A DNA stretch of 57,058 nt from Gemmatimonadaceae bacterium (GTDB lineage Bacteria; Gemmatimonadota; Gemmatimonadetes; Gemmatimonadales; Gemmatimonadaceae): NCBI GenBank assembly GCA_036496605.1, contig DASXKV010000060.1, forward strand, positions 1-57,058. The letters are read 5' to 3'. Shown in pieces: positions 17,187-57,058 of this stretch. The stretch's first letter is position 1. Every line of letters starts with the position of its first letter. Under the pieces are notes generated by a model that ran no database searches, was not told the DNA's origin, and was given only the letters and a program-made list of their open reading frames with translations. A program made the position numbers and the translations under genes.

Positions 17187-17786
17187 ATGACTGCGAAGCG
17201 GCAGGCTGAGCCTCTACTTCCGCCGCGCGAACGAATCGTCGCCGCGGCCGCGGACCTGTTTCTCAAACAGGGGATCCGCGGCGTGGGTGTCGAAGCCATC
17301 GCGGAGGCCGCGGGCACGAACAAGATGACGCTCTACCGACACTTCGCGTCGAAAGACGAGCTGATCGCGGAGTGGGCGCGCGGAATCGTTGCTCAGAAAG
17401 AAGCGCTCTGGGATACCTTGAGCGCGAAGTACCCGGATGATCCGCAGCAGCAGTTGATCGAGTGGAGCGAGCGCGTCGCGTCGAAGCTCGCGGAGATGGA
17501 GCGCCGTGGCTCGATGCTGGCCAACGCACTGGCGGAGCTACCGGAGAAGGACCACCCGGCGCGCCGCGTGATTCAGGCGCACAAACTCCGCGAGCACAAA
17601 CACATTCAGCGGCTTTGCAAGGACGCCGGCTTTCAAGATGCGGATCTCGCCGCCAATCTTTTCTTCCTGCTCCTCGAGGGCGCGCAAAACTGCGTCCAGT
17701 GCACGGGCATGAAGCGAGTCGGCGAGGACCTCGTGCGACTCGTCCAGCGGATGGTGGAGAATACGCAACAGGCGCGTCGTCTTTGA
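17187..17786 (+). CDS. TetR/AcrR-family repressor of the efflux operon
   Basis: A 199-residue TetR-family protein. The N-terminal HTH (about residues 14-62) reads ERIVAAAADLFLKQGIRGVG, then IAEAAGTNKMTLYRHFASKD, the canonical pattern. The C-terminal helical ligand domain contains VASKLAEMERRGSMLANALA and a Cys pair in GAQNCVQCTG. It is divergent from the adaptor-pump-channel operon with two palindromic operators between, the standard arrangement for an autoregulated local repressor of drug efflux. The inducer is unknown. Confidence 0.92.
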   Translation: MTAKRQAEPLLPPRERIVAAAADLFLKQGIRGVGVEAIAEAAGTNKMTLYRHFASKDELIAEWARGIVAQKEALWDTLSAKYPDDPQQQLIEWSERVASKLAEMERRGSMLANALAELPEKDHPARRVIQAHKLREHKHIQRLCKDAGFQDADLAANLFFLLLEGAQNCVQCTGMKRVGEDLVRLVQRMVENTQQARRL

Positions 17787-17911
17787 CTCGGTACATTCGT
17801 GTCGTCGTGCGCAAAAACCTCCGTGCTCGTGATCGCATCGGTTGAACGAGTGGTGGCGATCGAGCGCGCTGGGGAAGCGTCGTCATTGTCGTGGGATTGA
17901 AGTGAGAAATG

Positions 17912-18495
17912 AGTGGACGAATGGTCAGGTCAGCGGAACAGGCGGAGGAATCACCGGAACGGGGGAAAGTATCGCCGGCACAGGCGGAGGAATCACCGGG
18001 CCGGTGCATCGGGCGGAGGAGCGCGCCGTAAAATCGGCGATGGATGGTGCTCAACGACCGATCGCCATCGAAAAATGAGAGGAACAAGACGATGCGCGAG
18101 CGGACACACTGAATCGCTAACGGGAAAAAGCGCGTAGCTGACGGAACAACCCCAACGCTCACCGGAACGCGCGTCGGTGTCGTGGGCCGCGGCGTTCGAT
18201 GACGGGAACGGCCGTGCGTGTTAGCGGCCGTAAATGTTTCGTTCGCGGAACGGCGGTGAGTGTCAGCGGACCGCCTGTGACTGCGAGTGGAACGCGCGGT
18301 GGTGGAACCGGAAAATGTTTTCGATCAGCGGAACCGATTTTCCGCCAGCGGACCAACCGTGTGTGCTACCGGACCACGCGCGACGCTGAGCGGGCACGCG
18401 TTCGCACGAGTAGACCTCCCGTGAGTGCCACGGGAACGCCCGTGCTTTTAGGTCAACGCAGCGGATCGTCCGCGGAACGCGTGTCGAACGGCCCT
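17912..18495. repeat. Degenerate tandem array with a ~21-bp period (about 27 units)
   Basis: Units begin GGAAC, GGACC or GGGAA and end AGC, ACC or GAC, giving a recurrent junction such as AGCGGAAC or ACCGGAAC every 20-21 bp. The units at 17935-17955 and 17977-17997 are identical except for one base. Nearly all others are diverged, and several are 20 bp, so no reading frame is kept through the array. Short stretches of heptapeptides appear in translation (SGTGGGITGTGESIAG; RGTAVSVSGPP), which may mean a decayed repeat protein or may simply be the period of 21. It fills the gap between convergent tetR and the DUF1569 gene. Confidence 0.7.
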
Positions 18496-18521: not shown

Positions 18522-18992
18522 TCACAACCCGAACTGGCGCAGGTGATGGTCGATGTGGCGGTATGCCCAACGGCACCATTCCGCCTCGTTGAGCGAGCCA
18601 AACAAGTAGTGTTTGGAAAGTCGCCCCTTCCCTACTGCTACGAGAAAGCGCTCGGTTGCTGTCTCGAGCAATGCGATGTCTGCCGCGAAGTGTGGGCTCG
18701 GTGGTGTGCCGCCGATGAGCTGATCTGCTTCCGGTCGTGTTTTCATACCGTGAGGCCAGGGCAACGGTGCGTATAACGCGGTCCACTTGAGCAAAGTCCT
18801 ATCGACGAGCGTCGGAGCAGGCATCGTACTCCGGACCGTCCGATCTCCGAAAAGGTTGCGGAAGGCGTCTGTCAGGTGACAGACCATCTGACGCGCCGTC
18901 ATTCGCCCCCACCGGCCGGGCATATCGGGATCCAGGCGGTGCAGGCGTTGGAGTATTCTTTCGCGATCACGTCGCCGGCTCAGTGTTCTCAT
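18522..18992 (-). CDS. DinB-superfamily DUF1569-like protein
   Basis: A 156-residue four-helix-bundle protein. The N-terminal helix pair contains WGRMTARQMVCHLTDAFR and the C-terminus ends CRWAYRHIDHHLRQFGL; the His residues in CHLTD and HIDHH are placed as the metal ligands of DinB-like proteins. Members are putative metal-dependent enzymes, some using low-molecular-weight thiols, but most are uncharacterised. I prefer the ATG at 18992 to the TTG six codons upstream. It is convergent with tetR across the repeat array. Confidence 0.72.
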   Translation of the reverse strand: MRTLSRRRDRERILQRLHRLDPDMPGRWGRMTARQMVCHLTDAFRNLFGDRTVRSTMPAPTLVDRTLLKWTALYAPLPWPHGMKTRPEADQLIGGTPPSPHFAADIALLETATERFLVAVGKGRLSKHYLFGSLNEAEWCRWAYRHIDHHLRQFGL

Positions 18993-19036
18993 GGCCGGCC
19001 GGATCCGCAAAAGTCATTCGCGCTCCGCTTGGCGGA

Positions 19037-50083: not shown

Positions 50084-50184
50084 AGGGCGACAAACTACTG
50101 AGTTGCCGGCCACGAGCGCTCAGCTTCCCGCTCACAGCTGGCCGCTCGACACTGACAGCTCGGCTGCTCAACGATGTTCTCGCC
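50084..50184 (+). repeat. Dispersed repeat element, copy A core
   Basis: The ~100-bp core begins GGGCGACAAACTACTGAG and continues in 7-bp steps (AGCGCTC, AGCTTCC, CGCTCAC, AGCTGGC) to TCTCGCC. It aligns with copy B at 56817-56923; copy B has exactly one more heptamer (AGCTGTC). The left flank keeps only a trace of the inverted units seen at copy B and is joined to the 2Fe-2S remnant. Four 14-bp units follow directly. Confidence 0.75.
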
Positions 50185-50360
50185 GCGCCCTTCTCGACGC
50201 GCCCTTCTCGACGCGCCCTTCTCGACGCGCCCTTCTCGACGCGCCTCTCTGCCCTCTGCCCTCTACCCTCTACCCTCTACCCTCTGCCCTCTGCCCTCTA
50301 CCCTCTACCCTCTACCCTCTGCCCTCTACCCTCTACCCTCCCTCCACCCTCTACCCTCTA
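50185..50360 (+). repeat. Tandem arrays: four 14-bp units then ~14 heptanucleotide units
   Basis: Four exact copies of GCGCCCTTCTCGAC (50185-50240), a short transition, then CCCTCTA/CCCTCTG repeated: 12 exact units at 50252-50335, an imperfect 11 bp, and two more at 50347-50360. Read on the minus strand the array is (TAGAGGG), giving stop codons in all three frames. The final unit supplies the TAG stop of the M28 peptidase gene (50358-50360). Confidence 0.9.
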
Positions 50361-51824
50361 CGGCGTCGCGGTCACTCGCGGGAACTCTCCCTCCCGCATC
50401 GCGGCATCGTAGGCAAACGTCGCGAGCACGACGGACGCCTGCTTCAACGCCTCCGGGTCCACCCGCTCGAACGTGTCCATATTGGTGTGGTGGATGCGCG
50501 TGTCGTACTCGGTGTAGTCCTGGATCGTGTTGAAGCCGGGGAGGCCCAGGGCGATGAACGACAGGTGATCGGTGCTTCCAATTTTCTCCATCACGTTCCG
50601 CCGGGCACCGAGATCGCGGAGTGGCGCGAGCCATTCGTCGAAGATCGTCTTCGCGGCGGCATTTCCTTCCATGTACCAGCCATAGATCCGTCCCGTGCCC
50701 GGATCATTATTGAGATAGAGGGAGAACTTCTCACGCGCCTTGGCGTTGACGTCGCCGGCATAATGGCGCTGTGCATACGCGCGCGAGCCGAGGAGTCCCT
50801 CCTCTTCACCGCCCCAGATGGCGGCCCGGATGGTGCGACGCGGCCTGACACCGGTTGCCTTCAGAATCCGCATCGTCTCGATCAACTCGGCGACCGCGTC
50901 GGCGTTGTCGGCGGCGCCCTGAGCAGAGTGCCACGAGTCGATGTGTGCGCCTAACAACACGACCTCGTCGCCGAGCCTGGGATCGGTTCCCGGAATCTCG
51001 GCGATCACGTTGTACGCGTTGGTATCAGCGGTCTCGTAGCGTGCCCGCAAGGAGACACGCAGCCTCACCGATGAGGAGTCGTGAATCAAGCGCACGAGCA
51101 GGTTGTACTGTTCTGATGAGACGATCAGCGACGGCACCGAGTTCTCAGGCGAACTGGCGCGATTGCCGAGGACGAACATCGTTCCCTCGTCACCTTCGGT
51201 GGGTCGCAGCACGGCCGCGGCTCCAAGCTCGCGCAGAGTGGCGAACATCGTCTGTCGCGGCAGCGGCCCGGTTGCGTTGACGGGCCGCGGCTGGCCGATT
51301 GGAACGGGGGCGTCGTGCTCCGTCGGCTGCATTCGATCGCGGGTGATGAAGACCTCCTGCGGCTTCGTCGCGAGAATGATCGCGCCGCGGATTGCGGCCG
51401 CGTGTGCGCGCACCGAGTCCACGTTCGCCAGGTCGCCGATGTACACCGGCTTACCCTCGACAGTGCCGTTCGTCGATGGCGACCAGGCCTCGGCATACGC
51501 GATGAGCGGCATGTAGCGTGGCGCCGTCAACTCGGCGGTCTGCCCCTCGAGCGTCCAGCCGCGTCCGAAGGGCCAGGACTCGAGGTGCACGTTCGAGAGC
51601 CCGTAGTCACGAAGCTTCTGCGCGGCCCAGTCGACGGACTGCTTGAACGCCGGCGAGCTCGTTAGGCGCGGACCGATGACTGTCGTGAGATGGTCGAACA
51701 GCTCGAGTGCGTGCGAGCGGTTCATTCCTTCGTCGCGGATTCGTGCGAGGTTGACGGAATCCTGCGCGCGTGCGGAGGCTATGGCCGCGAACGCCAGCAG
51801 TGCGGCGATGCTGTAGGATCGCAT
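50358..51824 (-). CDS. M28-family zinc aminopeptidase, exported
   Basis: A 488-residue peptidase with a signal peptide (YSIAALLAFAAIASARAQ). The M28 metal ligands are in order: His in GAHIDSWH, bridging Asp in GAADNADAVAE, catalytic and binding Glu in WGGEEEGLLGS, Asp in GSTDHLSF and His in RIHHTNMDT, so a co-catalytic di-zinc site is complete. A PA-like insert lies between residues ~130 and 260. The start ATG 51824 was chosen for the signal peptide. Its stop TAG is contributed by the heptanucleotide array. It probably trims exported peptides. Confidence 0.92.
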   Translation of the reverse strand: MRSYSIAALLAFAAIASARAQDSVNLARIRDEGMNRSHALELFDHLTTVIGPRLTSSPAFKQSVDWAAQKLRDYGLSNVHLESWPFGRGWTLEGQTAELTAPRYMPLIAYAEAWSPSTNGTVEGKPVYIGDLANVDSVRAHAAAIRGAIILATKPQEVFITRDRMQPTEHDAPVPIGQPRPVNATGPLPRQTMFATLRELGAAAVLRPTEGDEGTMFVLGNRASSPENSVPSLIVSSEQYNLLVRLIHDSSSVRLRVSLRARYETADTNAYNVIAEIPGTDPRLGDEVVLLGAHIDSWHSAQGAADNADAVAELIETMRILKATGVRPRRTIRAAIWGGEEEGLLGSRAYAQRHYAGDVNAKAREKFSLYLNNDPGTGRIYGWYMEGNAAAKTIFDEWLAPLRDLGARRNVMEKIGSTDHLSFIALGLPGFNTIQDYTEYDTRIHHTNMDTFERVDPEALKQASVVLATFAYDAAMREGEFPRVTATP

Positions 51825-56705: not shown

Positions 56706-56750
56706 CACTCCATACAGGGTTAGTTCAATTCTAGTGGCGATGCGGTAGGC

Positions 56751-57058
56751 GTCGAGAAGGGCACGTCGGGAAGAGGGCGCGTCGAAAACGGCGCGTCGAA
56801 AACGGCGCGTCGAATAGGGCGACAAACTACTGAGCTGCCAGCCCCTAGCTGTCAGCGCTCAGCTGTCTCCTCACAGCTGGCCGCTTCGAGACTGACGGCT
56901 GGTTGGTCAACGGTCTACTCGCCGCGCCCTCTTCGACGCGCCCTCTTCGACGCGCCCTCTTCGACGCGCCCTCTTCGCCGCGCCCTCTTCGCCGCGCCCT
57001 CTTCGCCGCGCCCTCTTCGCCGCGCCCTCTTCGCCGCGCCCTCTTCGCCGCGCCCTCT
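56751..57058 (+). repeat. Dispersed repeat element, copy B, with inverted flanking 14-bp arrays
   Basis: Left flank (56751-56820): about five units starting GTCGA in 14-16-bp steps, such as GTCGAAAACGGCGC, which are the reverse complement of the right-hand unit type. Core (56817-56923): GGGCGACAAACTACTGAG then heptamers AGCTGTC, AGCGCTC, AGCTGTC, TCCTCAC, AGCTGGC and on. Right flank (56924-57058): 9.6 copies of GCGCCCTCTTCGAC, which changes to GCGCCCTCTTCGCC after the third unit, and runs off the window end. The 353-bp stretch from 56706 has no gene. Confidence 0.9.

Follow-up and report, generated by a model that had tools for sequence, protein, structure and literature searches.

Positions 17,912–18,495 of the window (the whole stretch of DNA analysed, 57,058 nucleotides of a soil-type Gemmatimonadaceae bacterium) hold a periodic array of diverged 20–21-bp units. 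We propose that this interval is probably a degenerate non-coding satellite (minisatellite) array, belonging to a genome-wide class of intergenic arrays that share a 21-bp period. The array occupies a 735-bp gap between the ends of two convergent genes, a setting that the first-pass annotation, made from the sequence alone, had described correctly: a TetR-family gene on the plus strand and a DUF1569-like gene on the minus strand end towards each other. The features of this region are as follows.

17,187–17,786, plus strand: TetR-family regulator (Pfam TetR_N, E 2.2e-16), ending 126 bp before the array.
17,824–17,911, plus strand: leader immediately 5′ of the array, with blastn matches to the leaders of arrays C47 and C4.
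17,912–18,491, plus strand: degenerate tandem array of 28 units of 20–21 bp, from autocorrelation, unit layout and EM layout.
17,930–17,999, plus strand: least diverged stretch, spanning 3.3 units at an exact 21-bp period (TCACCGGAACAGGCGGAGGAA), from TRF.
18,522–19,010, minus strand: DUF1569-like protein of 162 aa (Pfam DUF1569, E 4.5e-4, just under the curated cut-off), ending about 30 bp past the array.

The TetR-family regulator is an ordinary neighbour and probably acts on the divergent RND pump genes. The DUF1569-like gene, with relatives in 28 of 41 genomes, is likewise an ordinary neighbour.

At lag 21 the array has an autocorrelation of 0.403 (z = 6.8 relative to 500 shuffles that preserve dinucleotides), with further signals at lags 20, 41, 42, 62 and 83 (z = 3.2, 5.4, 5.8, 4.0 and 4.2, same shuffles) and a flat profile at lags 22 and 43. 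The peaks at 21 and 20 bear out the period and coordinates given by the first-pass annotation, which had named autocorrelation at these lags as the check. With the near-identical first units removed (18,010–18,495), lag 21 still gives z = 5.7, a value reached by none of 300 shuffles. An independent EM layout resolves 28 units joined by eight steps of 20 bp and nineteen of 21 bp, with a mean period of about 20.7 bp; depending on the layout there are eight or nine 20-bp steps, the others are of 21 bp, and none is of 19 or 22 bp. The earlier count of some 27 units, with starts of the form GGAAC, GGACC or GGGAA, agrees with our layout. The units have in common an 8-bp core, A[G/C]CGGA[A/C]C; the 12–13 bases after it are variable and nearly free. 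GGA is the best conserved triplet of this core, its two G being present in 26 and 25 of the 28 units and its A in 21, while mean unit identity is 0.42 in the EM layout. Two units previously singled out as almost identical (at 17,932 and 17,974 in our register, 17,935 and 17,977 in the earlier one) do form a close pair; their likeness amounts to agreement at 18 of 21 positions.

This divergence conceals most of the array from ordinary repeat finders. TRF with its usual scoring reports only 17,930–17,999 (3.3 units), and an exact search for three GGAAC cores matches nothing, missing even the window array because the cores vary. Chaining cores that lie 20/21 bp apart gives a score of 115 at the array and at most 12 elsewhere in the window; the profile used was trained on the array itself, and the shuffle test is the unbiased one. 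With 28 units of 20–21 bp, the array fits the definition of a satellite as at least four tandem units of 10–200 nt. A CRISPR array was rejected, since only a degenerate 8-bp core is common to units of mean identity 0.42, in place of near-identical repeats with unique spacers.

The first-pass annotation had suggested searching for the unit elsewhere in the genome, and this search, by a synthetic SGTxVxV repeat and a loose core pattern, shows that the genome has at least 21 non-coding 21-bp arrays, the window array among them. Together they comprise 590 units and 569 spacings in the EM layout, with 13–50 units per array and a mean within-array unit identity of 0.38–0.56. Among the spacings, 535 are of 21 bp, 21 of 20, ten of 22, two of 19 and one of 23, and none is of 18 or 24 bp. 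Several arrays are paralogous blocks at dispersed intergenic sites, and paralogous arrays differ in length by whole units (21 bp; about 63 bp). They group as follows.

Family A: C33, C36, C69, C67 and C8, aligning over hundreds of bases.
Family B: C50a, C50b, C54a, C54b, C38, C3 and C1, aligning over hundreds of bases.
Pair C47/C4: leader and core in common with the window array.

The window leader and first units match the C47 and C4 leaders at 64% over about 137 bp (E 1e-10 to 4e-11), and the core AGCGGAAC is common to all three arrays; C47 and C4 are thus the family of the window array. The window array thus has dispersed copies of its leader and core, as expected of a satellite, with further families elsewhere in the genome. 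The window GGA core is absent from these other families, and no motif is common to all of them. Almost every array in the catalogue sits in a gap between strong gene calls, apart from small overlaps with them. The flanking genes are convergent at 6 arrays, tandem at 9 and divergent at 1, against a background of 83, 288 and 85, so that divergent pairs flank 1 of 16 arrays compared with 19% of gene pairs. Contigs C36, C67, C69 and C38 begin or end within or near 21-bp arrays, and the number of arrays is therefore probably underestimated. MacB/FtsX-type permease-like genes, recognised by eye, stand beside several arrays (L012, left end; L149, 10450–10579; L209, 1660–2463) and may simply be abundant in the phylum.

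A 5′ hairpin, CCACCG...CGGTGG, is carried by four arrays (C33, C36, C47 and C4), a copy with three mismatches occurs at a fifth locus, C12, and the hairpin is absent from the window copy. Four of these five loci coincide with the 5′ end of 21-bp arrays.

L200–L204, hairpin-like CCACCG(TGCGCGTCCGT)CGCGGTGG: C4:2655–2682, C33:271030–271057, C36:181–208, C47:1750–1777 and C12:6520–6547.

The period itself recurs. A scan of 869 kb (the window and seven whole or partial contigs) for periods of 10–45 bp, heptamers left out, finds long non-coding arrays at 21 bp at six loci, with 42 as a harmonic; periods of 14 and 18 bp appear once each, the 14 inside a 21-bp array. Heptamers apart, no other period of long non-coding arrays recurs in these 869 kb. 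From the five scan loci outside the window we estimate some 35 arrays in the 5.97-Mb genome, the catalogue of 21 coming partly from targeted search.

Beyond this genome the arrays are patchy. Searches of 550 kb of a same-genus genome and of 200 kb each of G016 and G018 turned up no non-coding 21-bp array; the G018 sample matches the Gemmatirosa kalamazoonensis plasmid NZ_CP007130, from the same family, at 100%. The single lag-21 match in the same-genus genome (L183) reads by eye as a coiled-coil signalling protein and was set aside as coding. The earlier suggestion to look for the unit in relatives was followed with a core-family sequence model, which finds strong matches in its own genome only among 118 family genomes. 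One weak match led to G129, of another genus, and to an array of 24 units in which 22 of 23 spacings are of 21 bp (L209); a second related array of another genus is L226. A further weak match (L210), a locus with a 1022-codon open frame, was judged by eye to be a gene for an ordinary beta-repeat protein and rejected. The array class is therefore not confined to one genome. In the literature we found nothing relevant on 21-bp arrays in Gemmatimonadota.

The window array codes for no protein and is no structured RNA. It has 2–7 stops in each of the six frames across 17,912–18,495, and nearly every catalogued array has stops in all frames. Translation in unit phase from the core does yield SGTAVSV, TGTPVLL and similar heptapeptides with a single stop in 28 units, as would a decayed and frameshifted gene for a heptapeptide-repeat protein ([S/T]-G-[T/P]-x-V-x-V) dispersed as pseudogenes, and a decayed repeat gene was among the readings offered by the first-pass annotation. 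However, this phase is not a real frame, because the 20-bp units break it, as the same annotation had recognised. Spacing deviations in the class are of ±1 bp in 31 of 34 cases and never of ±3, and other arrays are open in differing frames or in none. Between family-B paralogs, to which the test applies since the window array itself has no close paralog, the synonymous share of changed codons is 16–19% in all six frames, so that there is no sign of protein-level selection; paralog substitutions also fall roughly evenly on the three codon positions in most pairs. An intact coding homologue, which the annotation had named as evidence to the contrary, was not seen in the 118 family genomes with the array model. 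With neither an open frame through the array nor a synonymous bias between paralogs, we rejected this candidate and regard a decayed gene as highly improbable. A non-coding RNA transcribed between the genes, with a protein-binding motif repeated along it and acting as a sponge in the manner of CsrB or RsmZ, is somewhat less improbable, although still quite unlikely. CsrA sites are built around GGA, the triplet that varies least in the window core, and the arrays are directional, but the A[G/C]CGGA context differs from the ANGGA form of those sites and other families lack a GGA core altogether. The window array folds no better than dinucleotide shuffles on either strand (z = 0.15 and 0.64), and neither do the 21 arrays together (mean z −0.4, single outliers both ways). 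No Rfam family matches the window array above chance. A structured RNA was rejected on these grounds, and the earlier idea of a structural or termination region, taken as folded RNA, is not supported.

Another alternative is a phased protein-binding array, in which an architectural or regulatory protein would bind the core on one face of the helix while selection holds the two-turn spacing (20–21 bp) and the rest of the unit drifts. We consider this possible, if rather unlikely. The window spacing, of 20 or 21 bp only with a mean of 20.7, keeps the units in helical phase, and 21 bp is again the period of other unit families and of arrays in a second genus. In spacing the window array resembles iterons and phased operator arrays, whose direct repeats also lie about two helical turns apart; unlike them, it has no replication or partition gene beside it, consists of 28 diverged units and has many differing copies in the genome. 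Although units of the class disagree at roughly one position in two, 94% of spacings have stayed the same, a hint of constraint; this figure is an upper estimate, because the detector looks for lag 21 and favours register-keeping arrays, and the layout penalises other steps. Between paralogs, change is rarer at positions that are conserved from unit to unit (r = −0.78 in family B and −0.64 in family A), a correlation that may reflect duplication, since duplication of units can spread one change over many of them. The position profiles of disjoint family-B paralog pairs, however, agree poorly (r = 0.38, 0.06 and 0.14), and this suggestive but unreplicated position-specific conservation was not taken as proof. 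Under a stiff gap penalty C50a and C54b differ by 215 substitutions and 0 gaps, whereas a softer penalty lets gaps appear, and the indel-to-substitution ratio is then 0.032 in arrays and 0.041 in non-gene flanks (p = 0.29), so that indel depletion was discarded as well. Nor does a binding protein sit easily with the lack of a motif common to all families, or with the lack of arrays in 550 kb of the same-genus genome. Given detector bias, layout penalty and weak or failed control tests, we do not claim selection on spacing, and the protein-binding array proposed by the first-pass annotation is a possible reading, with the helical spacing it calls for. A broader version is more doubtful still: dozens of intergenic arrays would be selected for a 21-bp period of two helical turns with unit sequence nearly free, forming in Gemmatimonadaceae a DNA architecture read by helical phase and bound by a protein that recognises spacing and shape ahead of sequence. 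What does hold of the earlier description is an old and real non-coding array, loose in sequence but tight in spacing near two helical turns.

For the satellite that we favour, a 21-bp unit would have been multiplied by slippage or unequal recombination, a route with which the whole-unit length changes are consistent. Blocks of about 0.5–1.2 kb would then have been copied to other intergenic sites, mostly beside gene ends, and the copies would have drifted by point substitution with their register largely kept. Three aligned family-A copies show no terminal inverted repeats or target duplications, as of a transposon or MITE, at their inexactly mapped ends. DGR-like adenine mutagenesis was rejected as the source of unit diversity, the spectrum being ordinary (Ts/Tv 0.8–1.5, no excess at A). 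If the satellite is neutral, it is hard to see why apparently unrelated unit families, and those of another genus (L209, L226), should all be exactly 21 bp; the recurring period would follow if all arrays descend from one ancestor, or if 21 bp is structurally preferred.

Non-coding prokaryotic satellites have been described as species-specific intergenic tandem arrays of 10–200-nt units, several related copies of which are spread through a single genome (Subirana and Messeguer 2019, PMC6749651). Examples are known from Leptospira interrogans and Methanocella conradii, with short-repeat families in Chloroflexus aurantiacus and Burkholderia, and that survey judged dispersed families of non-coding satellites to be rare among prokaryotes (PMC6749651). 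The arrays of the window class are similarly intergenic, non-coding, tandem and dispersed in one genome. They differ in that their units are far more diverged (38–56% mean identity), as a result of which ordinary repeat finders miss most of each array, and in that one 21-bp period is common to unit families without clear sequence relation. STAR elements of Staphylococcus are direct repeats interspersed in intergenic DNA, where they gain and lose units and have locus-specific spacer sequence (PMC3532100); by description they resemble the present arrays, which also change by whole units, but they belong to another organism, and the arrays here reach 13–50 units. One bacterium thus holds at least 21 arrays of a single period built from several heavily diverged kinds of unit, similar arrays elsewhere may be overlooked, and what sets a repeat period becomes testable within one genome.

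Intergenic heptamer repeats, surveyed with SPADE in 2018, occur in many prokaryotes with a preferred period that is unexplained and no known function (PMC6344855). The 21-bp arrays are comparable in being intergenic with a preferred period, 21 is a multiple of 7, and the genome also has many 7- and 14-bp arrays. In contrast to heptamer repeats, they show no internal 7-bp repetition (mean match 0.13–0.31 at lags 7, 14 and 28), extend further and do not come in inverted pairs. The genome is rich in heptamer-based arrays; the window itself holds further 14-bp and 7-bp arrays at 50,177–50,387 and 56,749–57,058, the last running off the contig end. Inverted pairs, such as (GGTTGGT)n followed by (ACCAACT)n, occur in C33 at 249923–250064 (L071) and 283315–283454 (L073). 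Such pairs in gene gaps could fold into long hairpins, and another is found in the same-genus genome G002 (L127, 10805–10930), which brings them to two genomes of the genus.
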